NCBI RefSeq assembly: GCF_000169435.1
Contig: NZ_AAYB01000001.1
Location: forward strand, 620,001 to 684,000
Length of the DNA stretch: 64,000 nucleotides
Source: Roseobacter sp. CCS2
GTDB lineage: Bacteria; Pseudomonadota; Alphaproteobacteria; Rhodobacterales; Rhodobacteraceae
Reading direction: 5' to 3'
Under the pieces are notes generated by a model. That model had not been told where the DNA came from. It made no database searches and saw only the letters and a list, made by a program, of their open reading frames with translations. The translations under genes were made by a program, and so were the position numbers. Positions 5,443 to 13,544 of the stretch are shown one piece after another (position 1 is the first letter of the stretch; every line of letters begins with the position of its first letter).

Positions 5443-6141
5443 TCAGTCGATGGGGCGGTTTTTGTTTTTGTCCCGCCACGTCCCAAACCAACGGGACATG
5501 CGCCCCTTACGCTCGGCCACATCCGCCTGCACCTCGTCAATCTGGTGGCCTGCGGCATCCAGCAATGGATCAACCGACCGTTCGCGAAACTGCCGCCACA
5601 TCGCGCGAATGAACAAGATCGCCGCCATCAGGAAAATGAAGAAAAAGATATTGAACCACGGAATAATCGTGACGTGTGGCCCCGCGACGGGACGGATCGC
5701 AATCGCATTGGGAAAGGCAGAGACATATTCATTGCGCCAGCCGTAATGGGTCATCACGGCCCATTTTGGGGTCTCAGCCGTTGACACCAAATCATCCGCT
5801 TCTGTTTGCAGGTTTGCGGTGTCAAACTTGAAATAAAACGGCCAGCCCCAGCCAGTATCCTCATTGCGATACACCATCACTTCGGTCGTTTCACGCGGGA
5901 TAAAGCCCAAGGCCCAAGTCCGCTTTTTTACCGTCTGAATGAACTGCACATCGCGGTTGACCAATGTTGCAGATTGATCGTCCGGGCGTGCCCAGAAAAT
6001 CCGTGTCCAATCATTAAGGTCCTGACGTTCCTGATACGTATTCACCACCCGAACCACATCATGCTGCGGCAACGCGTAGTGCAGCAAACTGCCCAGCACC
6101 AAAAAGACAAGAACACGGAAAATGATTTTGATCCTACGCAT
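5443..6141 (-). CDS. DUF1523-family membrane protein
   Basis: A 232-aa protein of unknown function that I recognise as the DUF1523 family, seen mainly in Rhodobacterales. It has an N-terminal membrane anchor (IIFRVLVFLVLGSLLHYAL), a large extracytoplasmic domain rich in aromatic residues (for example NDWTRIFWARPDD and TGWGWPFYFKFDTANLQ), and a second helix near residues 170-190 (IIPWFNIFFFIFLMAAILFI) followed by a basic cytoplasmic tail. I place the start at the ATG at 6141, which follows GAAGGA with good spacing. It is the last gene of an eight-gene minus-strand cluster and converges with the aldehyde dehydrogenase gene. Confidence 0.75.
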   Translation of the reverse strand: MRRIKIIFRVLVFLVLGSLLHYALPQHDVVRVVNTYQERQDLNDWTRIFWARPDDQSATLVNRDVQFIQTVKKRTWALGFIPRETTEVMVYRNEDTGWGWPFYFKFDTANLQTEADDLVSTAETPKWAVMTHYGWRNEYVSAFPNAIAIRPVAGPHVTIIPWFNIFFFIFLMAAILFIRAMWRQFRERSVDPLLDAAGHQIDEVQADVAERKGRMSRWFGTWRDKNKNRPID

Positions 6142-6151
6142 GAGCCGTCCT

Positions 6152-6427
6152 TCAGTTCGCATTAATCATATAGACGATCGTCCCAAGCACGACGGTCGGA
6201 ACAACATAAACCAGCCCAATCAGCTTAGGCCGGATAGAGGCATCATAGGACTGCAACCCCTCTGACACAAAGGCATCGCGGGCGTCGGATGTGCCATCTT
6301 CGGGGTGATTGGCTTCGTATTCATCTTCCAACCGCTCTTTACGGACAGAACGGGAATAAATCGAGACGGAGAAATAAATAACCGTCAAACCAATGAACCC
6401 AAAAATCACAAGTTTGATAAAACCCAT
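6152..6427 (-). CDS. Small two-helix membrane protein of unknown function
   Basis: A 91-aa protein with two membrane helices (about residues 2-22 and 68-88) separated by a hydrophilic, acidic linker (KERLEDEYEANHPEDGTSDA). I do not recognise a family. The start at 6427 follows GAGGAAGGCG and its first base coincides with the last base of the upstream gene, a sign of translational coupling. The short hairpin topology suggests a membrane partner for the larger cluster proteins; that is inference. Confidence 0.7.
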   Translation of the reverse strand: MGFIKLVIFGFIGLTVIYFSVSIYSRSVRKERLEDEYEANHPEDGTSDARDAFVSEGLQSYDASIRPKLIGLVYVVPTVVLGTIVYMINAN

Positions 6428-7779
6428 CAGCGCCTTCCTCTTGTCACCGCACCCCACGGCCCGACACGCGTGATCAAATCAGGTTGTCTGATCCGTGGTA
6501 TTTCTGTCATCGGGTCCTCGTGCCCGAACAACGCCTCGCGCGTACCTGCCTTATCGACTTGGTACTCGCGGTCAAGAAAATCAACGACATAAGCACGCTT
6601 TTCGTCGGACCAGTCGGCATATTTGCGGTAGAATACCTCTTTGTGGCAAATGAATAGCTGACGAATATCCAGCGGCGTCAGTTCTGCCAGCAACATATTT
6701 ACAAGGTCCGCATCCGGGTGCGCCTTGGCGCGCAATGTATAAAAATAGGCCGGATGCTCTGACGTGATGGTAGGCCAGGGCCCGTCCTCTTCGGCCCAAC
6801 GCAGCAGTGCGGCTAACCCCTGCCATGCCTCTGGCAACTGATCCGCATATTGCCGCCCCAACCGGCGCAGATCGCGACGGGTGGCACCGGCCAAATCCTC
6901 TTTCATCTCAGCCGCGACAGAGGCCACGATGAAATCCATCTTCTGATGCAAAATCGCCGCCGAATCTACGCCGCGCGCTTCCATGATCGGTTCGACCAGG
7001 TCGTTTAGCGTCAGGAATTTCGCAATTGCCGAACGGTCATCAAAATCAAAAACAAAGGGGATCGGCAGTGCGCCAATCTCATCCTTCTGTGTCGCCACAA
7101 TCGCCGCCGGATGCGCCACCCCGCGAAATACATACATTCCGCCAAAATGATCGGTCCAGAAATTCTCTTGCCCGAACGTCATCTGCCGCAGGGCCACCGG
7201 GTTACGCACCACATCGCCCGTTTTCTTGGCCATCCCGATCATGTCAGCGATCAGCACATCGTCGTACCACCCATTCGGTTCCGTCTTGAAACGATCAATC
7301 ATTGCGCCCAGTTTCTTGGCCGTCGCAACTGTGCCACTTGTCGTGTCCGCCTCAATCGCGATCTTGCGAATATTGAACAGTTTTGCAGGCGTATCCGCCA
7401 CATAGACCGAATTCACCAATTCACCCGCAACCGCATCACGCGCCGTCAGCGCAAAAAGCTCTGCCCGATTTTCTGTGATAAATTGACGTAAGATGCTGCG
7501 TGATGTCGAAAATTTCGCGTTGAGCAAAGGCGCTGTCGCCTGTTCGGTCGTCAACAATATAAACTGCCGATTGACGCCTTTATGGTTTAGGTAAAGGTCA
7601 TCCTCCAACTCATCCCCGATTTCAGGTGAGTATCCGGAAATATCAATATGGAACACTTCCTGTTCTGTTTTGAGGCCTGTAAGGTGATTAAGCGCACGAT
7701 TGTAGCGTTCTACCAAGATCGGCGAATCCACCCTGATCAGGTTCCCAAACATCAGCCCTTTTTCAATTAACCGATGCAT
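6427..7779 (-). CDS. Conserved protein of unknown function (probably DUF6638)
   Basis: A 450-aa soluble protein without a signal peptide or membrane helix. I believe it belongs to the family catalogued as DUF6638, conserved in Rhodobacterales, but I have no known function to assign. The sequence is mixed alpha/beta in the first half (FHIDISGYSPEIGDELEDDLYL, RQFILLTTEQATAPLL). The second half is helical, with conserved aromatic/charged segments (LFICHKEVFYRKYADWSDEKR). It begins 1 base after the stop of the small membrane protein upstream and overlaps the next gene by 1 base, so it is surely co-translated with membrane partners in the AAA+ cluster. Confidence 0.7.
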   Translation of the reverse strand: MHRLIEKGLMFGNLIRVDSPILVERYNRALNHLTGLKTEQEVFHIDISGYSPEIGDELEDDLYLNHKGVNRQFILLTTEQATAPLLNAKFSTSRSILRQFITENRAELFALTARDAVAGELVNSVYVADTPAKLFNIRKIAIEADTTSGTVATAKKLGAMIDRFKTEPNGWYDDVLIADMIGMAKKTGDVVRNPVALRQMTFGQENFWTDHFGGMYVFRGVAHPAAIVATQKDEIGALPIPFVFDFDDRSAIAKFLTLNDLVEPIMEARGVDSAAILHQKMDFIVASVAAEMKEDLAGATRRDLRRLGRQYADQLPEAWQGLAALLRWAEEDGPWPTITSEHPAYFYTLRAKAHPDADLVNMLLAELTPLDIRQLFICHKEVFYRKYADWSDEKRAYVVDFLDREYQVDKAGTREALFGHEDPMTEIPRIRQPDLITRVGPWGAVTRGRR

Positions 7780-7780
7780 T

Positions 7781-8125
7781 CTACCACGTTTCCTTTACCC
7801 ATTTGCGCGGCAAGCTTGCGACAGATAATACCATGATCGGCGCCCATATCAGTGCGGCGATCAGGCCCAGCCGTCCAAACAGTGCAACACTCGTGACCAC
7901 ACCCGGTTCAAGTACTTCTGCGATACTCAGCCCTTGCCAAAGGTAGAGGCAAAAGAAAAACAGCGCTGACAGAACGAAAAGTAGGATAGTCGACAGAAAC
8001 GCATTCAGCATCAGGGGCTTCACCCCTTCCGGTAAGGCACGCGCCAAAACACGCGGCACTGCAAAAGAAACAAGTCCAAGCACAAGCGCCGGCAGAAATA
8101 ATGCATCTGAAAAAAGCGTGCTCAC
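7781..8125 (-). CDS. Three-helix membrane protein of unknown function
   Basis: A 114-aa hydrophobic protein with three predicted membrane segments (about residues 8-28, 42-66 and 82-103) and short charged loops (RALPEGVKP, PRKWVKE). I recognise no family. It overlaps the end of the AAA+ ATPase gene by 4 bases (ATGA type) and is followed after 1 base by the 450-aa DUF protein. This tight coupling suggests that it anchors the ATPase complex to the cytoplasmic membrane. Confidence 0.7.
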   Translation of the reverse strand: MSTLFSDALFLPALVLGLVSFAVPRVLARALPEGVKPLMLNAFLSTILLFVLSALFFFCLYLWQGLSIAEVLEPGVVTSVALFGRLGLIAALIWAPIMVLSVASLPRKWVKETW

Positions 8126-10068
8126 GAGCCAGCCTTCCCCTCCAGATACCGCTTCTTGGCAATTTCTTGGCGGCCAAAATCACGCACCATATTTTCAATC
8201 GCGACCTCGTCAGACTTATCAGCATAACGGAATTCACTGTCGGCATAGCGGTTGATTTCTTGGATCACCATTTCAACCGTAATTGGCTGGCGCAGTTCGG
8301 ATATCATGCCCTTCTTGGTGTCATAATCCTTAAACAGGAACAGATCGGGTTCTTCCATCCACTCATCGGGCAGTTCAAAATCCATCGCGCGGACCTTCAC
8401 CGCATCGGTGATGTTCTTGATCGCACGGCCGGTAAAGCGCGGATCCGCCTCCTGAATGCCCTTCAAATATGTACCCAGCTTGGCAATCGTATCAAGATCA
8501 CCAATCTCACCACGCACCCGCTCAAAGACCTTCTGAAGGCCTTCTTCATGCGGTCGGGCGTGGCTTTCAAAACTGGCTGTGACGGCCTTTTTGATCTCTT
8601 GCGCATCAAACACCTCATGCGCACCAACGGGAATATCGTGGTTCTTACCCATCAGCAGATAAAGGATGTCGATATAATCCTCACGCGTCTGCGGCCCATC
8701 CACCAGAAACCGCGCACCAGCCCGTTGGCGCAGCGCATCGTCCACGTTTTCTGGATAGTTCGAGAACATTCCAAAGGTGCAATTGCCCCGCACGACCGTG
8801 TTAGCCCCCGCAAAGCTTTCCATCAGCACCGCCGTAATTTCGAGCTGACCCGCAGAGGATTGCCTGTCGCCGCGCTTGCCAGCCAGCTGATCAATGTCAT
8901 CAATCGTCCCAAACCCGATCACACCGGGATCAAGTACATTATTGATAAACGCTTTGGCATTCTGACCTGATTTACCCTGATAGCTGTCGATATTGTCGGT
9001 TGAAAGGTTCTGATAGCGAAACGGATAGCCCGCCGTCTGACAATACTCATTCACCAAACCCGCCATCATCTGGATCAGGGTGGTCTTACCCGTACCGGGC
9101 GCGCCATCCCCCATGAACGTAAAGATAAACCCGCCCAATTCGGCAAAAGGGTTCAGCTTGCGGTCAAAGTCATAGGCCATCAGCATCTTGGACAGTTTCA
9201 TCGCCTGATATTTGGCAATGTGGTTGCCCACGACCTCATTGGGCTTTTTGAAGGTCATTGTCAGGGCACTGCCCTTGGCCTTGCGGGCAGGCGTAAACCC
9301 TTGGACGACAAAATCATCTTCTTCCACCCGCCACGACGACGCATTAAACGACGCCAACCGCCCCGCGGTGGACGCCCGCAATGACACCTTCGCCATCAAC
9401 TGTTCAGCATAGGCCAGCATCGTGGCAATCAGGGTTGGCTCATCCTTGGCAAACTGCCCCAGCTTCTGGTCCAACTCCCAAATCGCACCGTGCAAGGCCA
9501 GCGGGGCGTTGTCAGTCAGAACTTCATCCACACTGCCAACATCAACACTCTGCTCACCCGCTTGGGTCGCCAATAGAAACGAAGTGGCATTGGCAAAGGT
9601 GTACAGGGCCACCAAGGACTCAGCCGTCAGATACTCGGTAAATTCAACCGACCGATCCTGCGGCAATCGCCCTTCCAGATTAATGCGCTTCAACTCCGTC
9701 AAAGCCGTCTGATCGGAAAACGCATCCGCCACCGTCAAAGCAATGGACAAGGCACGGCGTAGTGCATGGGCGACAGCGGCCTGCGCAGGCGAGGTCAGCG
9801 GATCATCATCATCCGTCTCTGCAATGCGATCCAACAGCCGCACACCACCCGAAGGCGCTGAGGTCCGCGACAACAACCCTGGTGTCGTGGAACGGAACCT
9901 GCGACGGGTCGCCGCGACATCCGGCGATTTCTCCGGCGCCTCCAGCGACAAGCGTGCTTTGGCCAAGCGCGGGCTATGATCCAGATGCATCAACATCTCA
10001 GCCGCAGGAATATAGTGTTTGCGGATATCCTCTTCGCGCAATTCCATTTGATCACTTGACTGGCTCAT
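8122..10068 (-). CDS. AAA+ ATPase of unknown role (cluster core)
   Basis: A 648-aa protein. The first ~300 residues are a helical domain of unknown type. An AAA+ module follows: Walker A GAPGTGKT (322-329), Walker B-like GTIDDID (387-393), a sensor-1 Asn in TFGMFSNYP (Asn437) and Arg-finger candidates in DDALRQRAGARF (about 443-454). The last ~150 residues are helical, with an acidic C-terminal region. The start at 10068 follows AAGGATG. It resembles CDC48/MoxR-like remodelling ATPases more than transport or repair ATPases. Its neighbours are membrane proteins and a TelA-like coiled-coil protein, which suggests a membrane-associated remodelling or stress machine. The substrate is unknown. Confidence 0.8.
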   Translation of the reverse strand: MSQSSDQMELREEDIRKHYIPAAEMLMHLDHSPRLAKARLSLEAPEKSPDVAATRRRFRSTTPGLLSRTSAPSGGVRLLDRIAETDDDDPLTSPAQAAVAHALRRALSIALTVADAFSDQTALTELKRINLEGRLPQDRSVEFTEYLTAESLVALYTFANATSFLLATQAGEQSVDVGSVDEVLTDNAPLALHGAIWELDQKLGQFAKDEPTLIATMLAYAEQLMAKVSLRASTAGRLASFNASSWRVEEDDFVVQGFTPARKAKGSALTMTFKKPNEVVGNHIAKYQAMKLSKMLMAYDFDRKLNPFAELGGFIFTFMGDGAPGTGKTTLIQMMAGLVNEYCQTAGYPFRYQNLSTDNIDSYQGKSGQNAKAFINNVLDPGVIGFGTIDDIDQLAGKRGDRQSSAGQLEITAVLMESFAGANTVVRGNCTFGMFSNYPENVDDALRQRAGARFLVDGPQTREDYIDILYLLMGKNHDIPVGAHEVFDAQEIKKAVTASFESHARPHEEGLQKVFERVRGEIGDLDTIAKLGTYLKGIQEADPRFTGRAIKNITDAVKVRAMDFELPDEWMEEPDLFLFKDYDTKKGMISELRQPITVEMVIQEINRYADSEFRYADKSDEVAIENMVRDFGRQEIAKKRYLEGKAGS

Positions 10069-10079
10069 GCCGCATCCTT

Positions 10080-10112
10080 CTTCTCATGTTTCCAAATACC
10101 TCCGCCGGAGGC
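10080..10112. repeat. Intergenic repeat copy B
   Basis: This starts CTTCTCATGTTTCCAAATAC and continues through CTCCGCCGGAGGC, a short palindrome. It lies just upstream of the AAA+ ATPase start, in the largest gap inside the eight-gene cluster. The CTTCTCATGTT and AAATACCTC blocks match copy A (5381), and the CTCCGCCGGAGGC tail matches copy C (37188). Confidence 0.75.
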
Positions 10113-10171
10113 ATCCATCACGTCAAAATAAACCGGCATCTGCCATCAGTGCAAAACAGCGCGGCGCGTAA

Positions 10172-10189
10172 GGTGGGTTTTCACCCACC
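10172..10189 (-). promoter_or_regulatory. Hairpin directly after the 371-aa gene
   Basis: A perfect 7-bp stem (GGTGGGT at 10172-10178 with ACCCACC at 10183-10189) with a four-base loop starts immediately downstream of the minus-strand stop codon at 10190. No U-tract follows, so it may stabilise the mRNA 3' end or partly attenuate transcription before the AAA+ gene, rather than act as a full terminator. Confidence 0.45.
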
Positions 10190-11305
10190 CTATCTGTAAC
10201 TCAATACCCGTCCGCTATCGCTGACGACAAACTTGCGCACATCCCGAAAGCCCGCCGGATTACGCTCCGCCAACGCCTGATAGGGGCGTTCCGGCATAAT
10301 CAATGACCGCTCCATCCGGCTGGCACCCGTCTCTGCACCACCACACTCGAAGGGATCTAACGCAAAGATCTGGCGCTCCACTGATCCAAACCAGCCCGAT
10401 TTCACATTCTCAACGCGCTCCGACACCAACTCTTCCTCCGTCCAGACCAAAGCCCAGTCTTCACCGGCTGGCGCATTCGCCTCACGCAGCACATCGCGCA
10501 ACGGCCCGGTCTGGCGGGTAAACGCATTGCTATACATCGGGCCGATATGAAATCGGCGCAGGCGCGTCGGATGCAAATCCCCAAAATCCTCATCAAATCC
10601 CTTCGCAATCGTCAGTAACTTGAGATGCGCAAGCGACTGCGCCATCAAATGCGCCTGCGCTTCGGGCCAACGGTGCTCATCCTTGGGCAGCCCCGTGCGC
10701 CCTGTATCTTCCAACTCCATCAGATAGATCGTGGGCAGGTTCACCTGACTGTCGTAGACCGCCCAATGCACCAGAAACCGACGCCGGTCGCCTTCATTTC
10801 CCAGCCACAAACACTGCGGATCATTACGCGCCCAGAACTGATCCCCGCGCGAAAGCTCTTCATAGTAAAGCCGCTGCGACAGCGCATATTGCAGCTTGGT
10901 CGGGATTTCCTGCTCACTCAGGATCACCCGCACCATCTGATCTTTCAGATCGCCTGCATTGGGCTGCGCCTCAAGGTGGCGATCCGCTTGCAACGCATCA
11001 TTCGCCATCTCCAAAAGCTCTTGATAGACGGGAAATCCACTTTCACGCCGATCAAACGTCAGCTTACCCGCATGGGCAAAACGCCCCGCAAAATGATACT
11101 TGTGCGCCAGCGCAGTGAACGTCCAATTGAGGCCAATCAGATAGCGCGCCATCACCTCGATCTCTTTGCGATCAAAGCGACCCTCCGCTTCCATCGTCGC
11201 GGCCACCTTGGTCAGATAGCCCGTGATCTTGGCGAACTTATCAAAATACCGGCGCGTGACGCGAGTATCTTCCAGCTTCATATGATCGGCTTGGAGGTCA
11301 GTCAT
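10190..11305 (-). CDS. Conserved soluble protein of unknown function in the AAA+ cluster
   Basis: A 371-aa protein without membrane segments or a recognised domain. The N-terminal half is helical and charged (YFDKFAKITGYLTKVAATME, FDRKEIEVMARYLIGLNWTF). The middle has alternating hydrophobic strands (FLVHWAVYDSQVNLPTIYLMELED). The C-terminal third contains a WTEEELVSERVE segment and ends FVVSDSGRVLSYR. I prefer the ATG at 11305 over the longer frame at 11353, because 11305 overlaps the upstream small membrane gene by only 8 bases. Its position between the two-helix protein and the ATPase suggests that it is an adaptor or regulatory subunit; this is inference from context only. Confidence 0.65.
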   Translation of the reverse strand: MTDLQADHMKLEDTRVTRRYFDKFAKITGYLTKVAATMEAEGRFDRKEIEVMARYLIGLNWTFTALAHKYHFAGRFAHAGKLTFDRRESGFPVYQELLEMANDALQADRHLEAQPNAGDLKDQMVRVILSEQEIPTKLQYALSQRLYYEELSRGDQFWARNDPQCLWLGNEGDRRRFLVHWAVYDSQVNLPTIYLMELEDTGRTGLPKDEHRWPEAQAHLMAQSLAHLKLLTIAKGFDEDFGDLHPTRLRRFHIGPMYSNAFTRQTGPLRDVLREANAPAGEDWALVWTEEELVSERVENVKSGWFGSVERQIFALDPFECGGAETGASRMERSLIMPERPYQALAERNPAGFRDVRKFVVSDSGRVLSYR

Positions 11306-11528
11306 GACGATGCCAAGGCAGTGGGCCAAGCCATTCTTGCACCTGAATGCCAAGAAGTGTTATCCGCGGTGAAAAGCGGCCAGCGATGAACAAGACAACG
11401 TCCAGTGCTGCGAGCATTTGCGTGATCAAAAAAACTGTGATCGCCACACCACTTGGCATGCGTGTGAATATCAGTGCAATCAATAGGATAACTCCCAGCA
11501 ATTGAATTGCATCACGACGATGGTACAC
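11298..11528 (-). CDS. Small two-helix membrane protein in the AAA+ cluster
   Basis: A 76-aa protein read from a GTG start at 11528, 8 bases after the stop of the TelA-like gene. It has two adjacent hydrophobic helices (AIQLLGVILLIALIF and VAITVFLITQMLAALDVVLF) and a short C-terminal amphipathic tail with Trp residues. I recognise no family. Its 3' end overlaps the next gene by 8 bases. The ribosome-binding site is weak, so expression probably depends on translational coupling. Confidence 0.6.
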   Translation of the reverse strand: MYHRRDAIQLLGVILLIALIFTRMPSGVAITVFLITQMLAALDVVLFIAGRFSPRITLLGIQVQEWLGPLPWHRHD

Positions 11529-11536
11529 CCGCCGCT

Positions 11537-12619
11537 TCAGGTCTGATCCCCATACTGATTACTATCATGCTTCTTCACGATCTCTTGGAACCGGCGCACA
11601 AAGCGTTCGTCCGCTTTCGCCTTCTGCTCCAGCACCTCGCGAGCGAAGACCATGTGATCTTCATGCGCTTCCATCATATCGGCCATCCGTGATGTCGTCG
11701 CAGCCCCAATTGCCGCCATCGCCGATTGCGCCTCTTGGTCGGTCTTCACACCAATCTCGTTGATCTGGTGGGCCACGTCCTGCTGCTGTGCGGTCTTCAA
11801 GGACTTCGACAGTGCATCATACAACACAACACGCTGCTTGGTATCTGTCTGCAATTTGTTGATCAGCACCATCTGCGTCGCCGCCTGGTTCTGCAAACTG
11901 TCGATCCAGGTTTTACCTTTCTCGATATAGCGCTCAAGCGTCTGGCTTTTCGCCAATTGCACCTGCTCGTTTTGGATCATCTCATTGTACTGGCCATTCA
12001 ACCCAGCCAATTCAGTTTCCAGCTTAGTGCGCGCAGCCGCGTCCTGTTCAACCGAGATCTTGTTCTCAAGCTCAATAATCTTGGGATCCATCCCAAGAAT
12101 CTCCGCACGCAGCGCTTCCAGTTCACCAACGGTCACTTCACGCTCTTCCAGCGTGCCGCCAAGGTTCTTCTCAACGCTGACCTTTTGCTCGTTCAGGACA
12201 GCCAACTGGCCTTCCAACAACTGCATGATCACGTCGGATTTGCTGATCAGATCTTGCAATTTATCGTCAATGGACGCGGTACGCATACGCTCTTGACGCA
12301 TGCTGTCGGCCTTACCCTTGCTGAAAAACCCAATAAGGCTTTCCATGCCCGTTTTCGACCGCATCTCATCAAAATCTTTGGAAAAGGCGGATGTGACGTC
12401 ATCAAGACCCATGATCAGTTCAGCAATATTGGCATTCATCAACTCGGTATGGGCGTGCACATCCTCTAGACTGGCATTTTCGATATCGACAGAGATATCG
12501 GTGCCTTCTGCCATTTTCGTGCGCGCAATCTCAATCCGGCTGGTCAGCTCTGAAATTTTGCTTTGTGCCTCGGCGACTTGCGCCTGGCTGTCCTTAATCT
12601 GTGTCTCGAAATTCGCCAT
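11537..12619 (-). CDS. TelA-like coiled-coil protein
   Basis: A 360-aa, mostly helical protein. Residues ~1-60 and ~140-235 look like long coiled coils (for example EIARTKMAEG and TVGELEALRAEILGMDPKI). The C-terminal half (IEKGKTWIDSLQNQAATQMV through VVLYDALSKSLKTAQQQDVA) resembles the toxic-anion-resistance TelA family pattern of helical repeats. There is no signal peptide or membrane helix. It is the first gene of the eight-gene minus-strand cluster, with GAGGGATGAT before the ATG. TelA proteins are known from stress and tellurite-resistance gene neighbourhoods with AAA+ ATPases, which fits this context, but the homology is suggested by pattern only. Confidence 0.6.
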   Translation of the reverse strand: MANFETQIKDSQAQVAEAQSKISELTSRIEIARTKMAEGTDISVDIENASLEDVHAHTELMNANIAELIMGLDDVTSAFSKDFDEMRSKTGMESLIGFFSKGKADSMRQERMRTASIDDKLQDLISKSDVIMQLLEGQLAVLNEQKVSVEKNLGGTLEEREVTVGELEALRAEILGMDPKIIELENKISVEQDAAARTKLETELAGLNGQYNEMIQNEQVQLAKSQTLERYIEKGKTWIDSLQNQAATQMVLINKLQTDTKQRVVLYDALSKSLKTAQQQDVAHQINEIGVKTDQEAQSAMAAIGAATTSRMADMMEAHEDHMVFAREVLEQKAKADERFVRRFQEIVKKHDSNQYGDQT

Positions 12620-12749: not shown

Positions 12750-13544
12750 TTATACGCCGTCTAATTCAGGCGGACGATCTCTTGCAACAGCATCATCCCC
12801 CAACAATTCCTCTGCAGAGATGATTTTTGGCGGCAATTCAATCCCACGATCAAAGTTTTCGGGATCAACGCGCATAGACTCCTCGGGTGATCGAATGACC
12901 ACTTTCATCGGGGCTTCAATCTGATTGTAAAGGTGGATCACGTCCTGATTGAACATGCGAATACAGCCCGCAGATCCTGAATTACCGATAGATTCCAAAT
13001 CGTTGGTGCCATGAATACGGTAATGGGTATCGCGGCTACCCCTAAACAGGTACAGCGCACGCGCGCCCAATGGGCTGCGCAGACCGCCGGGAATGCCTGC
13101 ACGAAACGGGCCATACACCTCTGGTTCGGTGCGCAACATATTCTGGGTCGGTGTCCAACCGGGCCACTGGCGCATGAATTTCATGGTCGTGGTCCCGCGG
13201 ATCGACCGGCCAGCGCGGCCCACCCCGACAGGATAACGCGTTGTCGTGCCGTCTTCGCGGACGTGGTAAAGAAACTTGGCGTAAGGATCGACATCCAGGG
13301 TGTTTGGGCCCGCTTCGCCGTTGTAAATCCCTGATCTGCGGCGATTCACGCCTTGCAGATACTTTGATGGGATACCCGGCAGAATGTATCCTGCGTCCTC
13401 AATCGGGCCATACCCTTCGACGAAAGACATGGGGCCTGATGGCGCAACTTCTGTTATTGGCACACGGGGTCCACAGGCAGCGGCTGCGCTGGCCAACGCC
13501 ATTGCCGTAAACGAGCGGCGAGAGAGATTTTTAACTGACGACAT
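12750..13544 (-). CDS. Exported L,D-transpeptidase (YkuD domain)
   Basis: Makes 3-3 peptidoglycan cross-links or attaches proteins to peptidoglycan in the periplasm. The 264-aa product begins with a twin-arginine-like stretch (SRRSFTAMALASAAAAC) that also fits a lipobox, so it is probably an exported lipoprotein. The YkuD catalytic motif is complete: His178 in HGT and Cys194 in GSAGCIRM. The length is typical. It lies 130 bases upstream of the TelA-like gene on the same strand and could share transcription with the AAA+ cluster, which would connect that cluster with the envelope. Confidence 0.9.
   Translation of the reverse strand: MSSVKNLSRRSFTAMALASAAAACGPRVPITEVAPSGPMSFVEGYGPIEDAGYILPGIPSKYLQGVNRRRSGIYNGEAGPNTLDVDPYAKFLYHVREDGTTTRYPVGVGRAGRSIRGTTTMKFMRQWPGWTPTQNMLRTEPEVYGPFRAGIPGGLRSPLGARALYLFRGSRDTHYRIHGTNDLESIGNSGSAGCIRMFNQDVIHLYNQIEAPMKVVIRSPEESMRVDPENFDRGIELPPKIISAEELLGDDAVARDRPPELDGV

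Follow-up and report, generated by a model that had tools for sequence, protein, structure and literature searches.

The operon and its conserved core

We analyzed a window of 64,000 nucleotides from Roseobacter sp. CCS2 (contig NZ_AAYB01000001.1, positions 620,001 to 684,000), a strain with a 3.5-Mb genome whose closest named relatives, in a search with the ATPase described below, are Yoonia and Loktanella. An operon of eight open reading frames (ORFs), here called g1 to g8, occupies the minus strand of this window from 5443 to 12619. An earlier reading made from the letters and their ORFs (the sequence-only reading) had described eight tightly packed genes that together looked like one membrane-anchored remodelling machine, and all eight ORFs were recovered where it had placed them. 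Comparison with related loci gives good support to a different architecture, which is modular: a constant core, lineage-specific membrane genes, and two fixed slots with exchangeable content.

The gene g1 (11537 to 12619) encodes a 360-amino-acid (aa) coiled-coil protein that is helical throughout. It is separated by an 8-base gap from g2 (11298 to 11528), which has a GTG start and encodes 76 aa with two transmembrane (TM) segments, and g2 overlaps by 8 bases with g3 (10190 to 11305), whose product, 371 aa counted from its ATG, is a soluble protein with a helical N-terminal part and an alpha/beta C-terminal part. After the widest gap, 121 bases, comes g4 (8122 to 10068), encoding a 648-aa AAA+ ATPase with Walker A GDGAPGTGKT (residues 320 to 329; 9082 to 9111) and Walker B TIDDID (residues 388 to 393; 8890 to 8907). 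A 4-base overlap joins g4 to g5 (7781 to 8125; 114 aa, three TM segments), and a 1-base gap separates g5 from g6 (6427 to 7779; 450 aa). The last two genes, g7 (6152 to 6427; 91 aa from its ATG, two TM segments) and g8 (5443 to 6162; 239 aa, TM segments at residues 13 to 31 and 167 to 185), overlap their upstream neighbors by 1 and 11 bases, respectively. The TM segments were called from hydropathy, which found none in g1, g3, g4, or g6. The sequence-only reading had named an AAA+ ATPase, a 450-aa DUF protein, and a DUF1523 protein; in our scan g4 is a member of Pfam AAA (PF00004; 43.9 bits against a cut-off of 21.2), g6 of DUF6638 (PF20343; 766.6 bits), and g8 of DUF1523 (PF07509; 222 bits). 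No Pfam family was matched above its cut-off by g1, g2, g3, g5, or g7, and none of the eight proteins matched an NCBIfam model above its cut-off. A scan of the window for promoter-like sites (2, against 6.1 in shuffled sequence) and terminator-like sites (13, against 9.6 with a standard deviation of 3.2) was uninformative.

The operon was compared with 80 related loci, the top 80 of the 580 or more relatives that the ATPase search gave; close relatives are over-represented in this set, and several loci end at contig ends. With the window's gene order kept, g3 and g4 were present in all 80, g1 in 79, g6 in 77, and g7 and g8 in 74 each, so that the co-occurrence of these six genes is far above chance. 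In contrast, g5 was recognized in 23 and g2 in only 1 of the same 80 loci. The sequence-only reading had held that its proposal would fall if the genes were rarely found together, and this is the case for g2, and also for g5 once the window's clade is left aside, but not for the other six. Two of its four membrane partners thus lie in exchangeable slots, and the eight genes do not form a single unit. The conserved unit is the cytosolic four-gene core of g1, g3, g4, and g6, of which g1 and g4 are the best-conserved members. In Rhodobacteraceae the membrane genes g7 and g8 follow this core, and in eight of nine rhizobial-type copies (L104 to L106, L115, L165, L166, L221, and L226, not L224) it is followed by a DUF2333 gene. 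Association with the membrane is plausible, as the sequence-only reading had proposed, while its picture of all eight genes as one machine is unsupported.

The order g1, g3, AAA, DUF6638 is kept in Shinella, in Sinorhizobium meliloti, on a Rhizobium leguminosarum plasmid, and in further genomes with rhizobial-looking neighbors. The four core genes also occur on plasmids of about 0.9 Mb in Vibrio vulnificus and Vibrio parahaemolyticus (L222 and L223), both typed as non-mobilizable; the g3 of one of these plasmid copies matched only three proteins in a protein database search. A Frigidibacter copy (L058) has a 533-aa ORF between g3 and the ATPase gene, and no DUF6638 was found in that locus. Among 299 genomes sampled across the phylum, DUF6638 was present in 20, all of which also have g1. 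A g1 match was found in 30 of 398 sampled genomes, and 29 of these look real, since the remaining one, in G271 (E 0.0014), comes from a 615-aa protein of another kind. Three genomes (G043, G107, and G253) lack DUF6638 and have a diverged g1, with no other core gene in the fetched sequence around it. Diverged g1 genes without an adjoining ATPase gene, g3, or DUF6638 also occur in some rhizobial genomes (L225, 5794 to 8148, and L162 to L164); one of them, on an R. leguminosarum plasmid, is followed by a DUF2333 gene. Within the family the distribution is patchy, with g1 in 14 of 27 sampled genomes and both presence and absence inside two genera.

Among PDB sequences, g4 comes closest to an i-AAA protease ATPase domain (E 2.5e-5), Fidgetin-like 1 (3.7e-4), and Vps4 (1.5e-3), and an i-AAA protease ATPase domain is its sole PDB profile match at E ≤ 0.001. 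A set of 33 relatives conserves Walker A as GDGxPGTGKT, an FSN/FTN stretch, N437, and ALRQR; by the usual AAA+ motifs, N437 would be the sensor-1 Asn and ALRQR the arginine-finger region. Walker B of AAA+ proteins normally contains Asp-Glu. This catalytic Glu is lacking in g4, where the motif is IDDID or close to it and the Asp-Asp pair, D390 and D391, is invariant both in the 33-sequence set and in a 30-sequence set (A2). The AlphaFold2 model of g3 is confident (mean predicted local distance difference test score [pLDDT], 89.0) and had no PDB match at E ≤ 0.001 and no close solved fold.

The sequence-only reading had called g1 TelA-like, an assignment that profiles do not support. There was no Pfam match of g1 to TelA (PF05816) at E ≤ 1, and hhalign gave probabilities of 0.2 to 12.6% over all runs (with 8 and then 26 TelA sequences), below the 13 to 23% obtained for TelA against PspA in the same runs (first alignment). 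On these Pfam and profile-profile results we rejected membership of g1 in TelA. Some stretches of the two proteins look alike by eye (a W/G-F loop, L-x-x-K-[IL], and a basic C-terminal helix), a likeness without statistical support. A TelA profile had no match at E ≤ 1e-3 in 103 loci. The only TelA of the genome (360 bits to PF05816; L001, 1438 to 2631) lies on contig C10, away from the operon, where a same-strand gene, putatively XpaC-like, stands immediately upstream of it. The AlphaFold2 model of g1 is weak (mean pLDDT, 65.9), with long helices at residues 103 to 190 and 194 to 292, and its Foldseek and VIA fold matches were mostly generic helical proteins. There was likewise no Pfam match of g1 to PspA/Snf7, and hhalign against PspA gave 0.8 to 21% over all runs. 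When the 103 loci were scanned with a PspA profile, PspA was found near the core in one only (L103, 6599 to 7615), with a YiaA-like gene (by eye) and, between these and the operon, an opposite-strand gene that looks TetR-like by eye. A link to PspA or ESCRT-III drawn from this locus was dropped because of the single occurrence and the intervening opposite-strand gene.

Upstream of g1 in the window lies the L,D-transpeptidase (YkuD) gene (12750 to 13544) that the sequence-only reading had pointed out. The gene is real and adjoins g1 in the window's close relatives, but it lies outside the conserved unit and is not a general neighbor, with a match anywhere in the locus in 25 of the 80 related loci. 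Other flanking genes (aldehyde dehydrogenase, deoC-like, flagellar-looking), like the L,D-transpeptidase, recur in only part of the loci.

Two exchangeable slots

The genes g2 and g5 occupy two exchangeable slots inside the operon. Slot A, from the g1 stop to the g3 start, is 11306 to 11536 in the window, and slot B, between the ATPase gene and DUF6638, is 7780 to 8121; the content of slot B is exchanged in other genera and stable, as the g5 family, in the window's clade. Measuring gaps to longest-ORF starts and counting those of at least 150 bp, we found one at slot A in 59 of 92 loci and at slot B in 80 of 88, against 8 of 92 between g3 and g4; of 77 loci counted at each of two later junctions, one had such a gap at g7/g8 and none at g6/g7. 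ORFs with at least two TM segments were present on the operon strand in 35 of the 59 slots A and 47 of the 80 slots B and on the other strand in none of either (0/59 and 0/80); for ORFs with at least one TM segment, the operon strand had 41 (A) and 54 (B), compared to 2 and 4 on the other strand.

The content of the slots is diverse. The 92 slot-B ORFs of at least 75 aa fell into 49 BLAST clusters and the 56 slot-A ORFs of at least 60 aa into 42, numbers that include some spurious ORFs and are easily inflated by the over-splitting of small TM proteins. Small size alone is insufficient to explain this diversity, since g7, likewise a small TM protein, was recognized in 74 of 80 loci. The largest slot-B cluster and commonest cargo is the g5 family, with 20 of the 92 ORFs. 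When the TM-type slot ORFs were searched iteratively with profiles, relatives of g5 made up 15 of 47 in slot B and relatives of g2 none of 35 in slot A; six further slot-B proteins have a C-terminal WxP motif in common with g5 and may be distant relatives of it. Unrelated genes stand at a fixed site between conserved flanks, the pattern of a polymorphic cassette.

Turnover of the slots can be followed among close relatives. In 13 Ruegeria loci the ATPases are 94 to 97% identical, with identities of at least 90% for g1, g3, and g4 and at least 84% for g6. When whole slots of these loci were compared pairwise by DNA and translation (78 pairs), similarity was absent from slot A in 70 pairs and from slot B in 64; the other 14 slot-B pairs had some similarity, which in 7 pairs spanned half or more of the shorter slot. 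The same comparison was applied to the flanks, where the start of DUF6638 was similar in all 78 pairs and the 600 nucleotides (nt) from the g7 start in 74. We had also used BLAST families of called ORFs as a measure for slot B (6 of 78 Ruegeria pairs share a family) and set this aside in favor of whole slots, as it missed sharing, for example, in L094, where a duplicated ATPase end put the first cargo gene elsewhere. The Ruegeria g7 and g8 genes form two linked allele groups, with pairwise identity down to 52 and 61%, respectively (L078 has no called g7). Six loci of the window's clade have a slot A, and none of their 15 pairs showed similarity there. When 12 slot-B families common to 33 loci (the g5 family left out) were placed on a quick ATPase tree, 26 changes were needed, a count made without a shuffle control.

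The borders of the exchanged segments are sharp. Twelve Ruegeria loci were compared with L059. For slot B, 10 of the 12 lose the upstream match no more than 10 nt from the final ATPase codon, and in 10 of the 12 the match on the downstream side begins no more than 16 nt from where DUF6638 starts. For slot A, all 12 keep to limits of 8 nt from the final g1 codon and 9 nt from the g3 start. Similarly, in the nine relatives nearest to the window (L022 to L030), the match to the window stops 0 to 11 nt before the end of g1 and resumes 2 to 9 nt inside g3, with only chance matches of 8 to 10 nt between. Six of these nine loci have a slot-A ORF of 66 to 111 aa and three (L024, L025, and L030) have none; a search with g2 recovered none of the six. 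Some slots contain partial copies of core genes, with 56 bp (L059) and 53 bp (L079) of the g3 start inside slot A and 138 bp of the ATPase end inside slot B of L094. We infer that these copies are scars left when cassettes arrived through recombination in the core genes.

Cargo of the slots

Many cargo genes are closely coupled to the core gene upstream. With the start of each slot ORF taken as the one nearest to the upstream stop, a choice that favors closeness, the first slot-B ORF had the exact 4-base overlap with the ATPase stop in 27 of 71 loci, and in 46 of the 71 its start lay no more than 20 nt from that stop; in slot A the first ORF started within 20 nt of the upstream stop in 41 of 51 loci. 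The base composition of the cargo is also shifted. Median guanine-plus-cytosine (GC) content was 10.4 points below that of the ATPase gene for slot-B cargo other than g5 (n = 73) and 8.9 points below for slot-A cargo (n = 55), against 0.6 points for g6 and 5.8 for g7, with no shift in the g5 family. In the window itself, GC is 0.494 for g2 and 0.545 for g4.

To the extent that the cargo could be assigned to families, it includes proteins of abortive-infection and nuclease type. Among 71 slot-B proteins, Pfam (E ≤ 0.01) identified 13 families, among them AbiJ_NTD4, HATPase_c_2, and DUF4145 (2 each), PIN_10, DUF433, DUF2971, and DUF3825 (1 each), and DUF559, whose two matches came from rhizobial-type loci; the remaining matches were weak singles and, for the DUF559 proteins, a restriction endonuclease (REase) model. 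PMC3710099 describes AbiJ and DUF4145 as HEPN conflict proteins and gives Rx4H as a HEPN signature. In the slot-B family of L042, L043, and L113, two Rx4H motifs were seen by eye in L043. A relative of the L043 protein, with 40% identity, occurs on Leptospira plasmids, and no plasmid relative was found for two other cargo proteins. Slot A gave ten single Pfam matches, mostly weak, including a Phd/YefM antitoxin and a holin-type match.

A candidate conflict system and its alternatives

Fixed positions with such variable content are usually seen in systems engaged in an arms race, for example antiviral defence, and genes that change in this way are typical of the interchangeable effectors of conflict systems. 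The slot genes change fast at fixed sites, often overlap the upstream core gene, often have foreign composition, and include abortive-infection and nuclease-type proteins. For these reasons we tentatively read the operon, from sequence comparison, as a membrane-associated AAA+ core with plug-in partners that could serve in conflict, either against phage or between bacteria, a reading that we regard as quite possible while short of probable. The products of the slots would then be partners that plug into the core as effectors or sensors. In the order of events that we infer, membrane proteins would report envelope damage or the entry of a phage, and an ATPase ring, with g3 and DUF6638 as adaptors, would remodel the long coiled-coil g1 at the membrane. 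This remodelling would activate or release the slot-encoded protein, which might depolarize the membrane or cut RNA or DNA. It is conceivable, and we put it forward more cautiously still, that such operons represent a so far undescribed class of system for bacterial immunity or competition, in which an inner-membrane AAA+/coiled-coil core accepts plug-ins at two positions and cassettes are exchanged by recombination in core genes, leaving scars of the g3 start and the ATPase end, so that nearly identical cores would carry different weapons.

Several observations weigh against a conflict role, in addition to the possible inflation of slot diversity by spurious and over-split ORFs. The ATPase was absent from the phage collection and the viral contigs searched. 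Slot B is stable in the window's clade, where all 36 pairs are similar and all have a g5 gene, and the g5 family, the commonest cargo, shows no GC shift. No slot-B ORF of at least 60 aa was present in L102, L103, L108, L109, L111, L167, L222 to L224, or L226. PADLOC models (E ≤ 0.01) matched 11 families in the 71 slot-B proteins and 7 in 71 length-matched flank genes; the best slot-B scores were 1e-23 (the protein behind it is not named in the output) and 8e-9, against 8e-5 for the flanks. With so weak a contrast in family counts, the defence content of slot B is suggestive and not proven. Against curated defence models the core proteins had only weak matches (at best TRIP13 at 2.2e-5 for g4 and REase_II at 3.6e-5 for g1), comparable to the strongest one from the flank control genes (7.6e-5). 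Mobile passengers may also make up part of the cargo, including DUF559, since DUF559 was seen only in rhizobial-type loci, where the slot often has it, near repeat-like sequence and mostly uncoupled from the ATPase gene, and the S. meliloti slot contains an insertion sequence element besides its DUF559 gene.

The main alternative is a housekeeping or stress machine for membrane remodelling, similar to Vps4/ESCRT-III or Psp, in which the AAA+ protein would disassemble a g1 polymer at the inner membrane and the slots would be insertion-tolerant gaps that gather mobile and defence genes. We consider this possible but somewhat doubtful. The constancy of a coiled-coil protein and a classic-type AAA protein in the core is in keeping with it, as are the nearest PDB sequences of g4 (i-AAA protease, Fidgetin-like 1, and Vps4), the membrane genes that follow the core in most copies, and the ten fetched copies with no slot-B ORF; the association of PspA/Snf7 with classic AAA+ ATPases, described in PMC11237479, is counted on the same side. 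However, g1 has no significant similarity to PspA, PspA was near the core in a single locus out of 103, separated from it there by an opposite-strand TetR-like gene, insertions are almost confined to two positions and often overlap the upstream stop, and presence of the core varies inside two sampled genera.

Two further alternatives fit less of the evidence. The core could be an unfoldase for membrane-protein quality control, with the small slot membrane proteins as its adaptors or clients; the i-AAA protease domain as the only PDB profile match of g4 at E ≤ 0.001 and the predominance of TM proteins in the slots and after the core would suit this, but none of the eight genes matched a protease family and the soluble cargo (HEPN, AbiJ-type, PIN, and HATPase) is unlike clients, and we regard this explanation as unlikely. 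A TelA/Ter-type system for tellurite or envelope stress would account for the long helical form that g1 has in common with TelA and for best local profile alignments that are collinear over most of both proteins (for example, residues 48 to 358 on 26 to 331). The lack of a Pfam TelA match for g1, hhalign probabilities that do not exceed those of TelA against PspA, the absence of TelA from the 103 loci at E ≤ 1e-3, and the location of the genome's own TelA on another contig make it very improbable.

If the conflict reading is true, this gene set, which many marine Rhodobacteraceae and a number of rhizobia have, is a modular defence or competition system not described before, and its slots are a catalogue of small effectors, membrane proteins and nucleases, that have gone unrecognized. 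If it is false, the operon still gives core proteins without an assigned function, such as g3, which has no Pfam family, a common and testable context, and the two slots are a natural experiment in which the core is constant and the partner varies.

The sequence-only reading had also stated that the combination of genes was not a known one. This agrees with our searches, in which no named system was matched in the libraries used, and the AAA+/coiled-coil/membrane operon is conserved. A Sinorhizobium table in PMC3687685 lists SMc02733, which probably lies near choX, as a ChvI-bound fragment; since SMc02733 could not be confirmed as a gene of this operon, a link to ChvI was not used. In open-access PubMed Central, where most subscription papers are not searchable, we found nothing in print on this operon and no match linking these genes to defence or to a hypervariable context. 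Literature matches for DUF6638 or DUF1523 mention DUF1523 only, and neither these nor the matches with DUF2333 added, PMC5256989 included, appear to deal with the operon.

Among known systems, TelA (PF05816) resembles g1 in being a long helical cytosolic protein and differs in having no profile relation to it and in its location elsewhere in this genome. ESCRT-III/Vps4 and the PspA-AAA+ systems likewise combine a classic-type AAA+ gene with genes for coiled-coil and membrane proteins; here, in contrast, g1 is not detectably PspA/Snf7, Walker B is Asp-Asp, there are two extra core proteins, and the slots are exchangeable. Modular systems with interchangeable effectors (the logic of cyclic-oligonucleotide-based antiphage signaling systems [CBASS] and of polymorphic cassettes) typically also have a constant core, a fixed site for variable genes, and two-TM, HEPN, and PIN cargo, whereas this operon has no core protein that profiles place in such a system, has two slots, and treats cargo as optional. 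Finally, the AbiJ_NTD4 and DUF4145/HEPN domains of slot-B cargo are those of the HEPN/AbiJ abortive-infection proteins (PMC3710099); in the proteins described there, AbiJ is joined to N-terminal domains of its own, and some solo forms stand with restriction-modification genes, whereas here these proteins are encoded behind an AAA+ gene.

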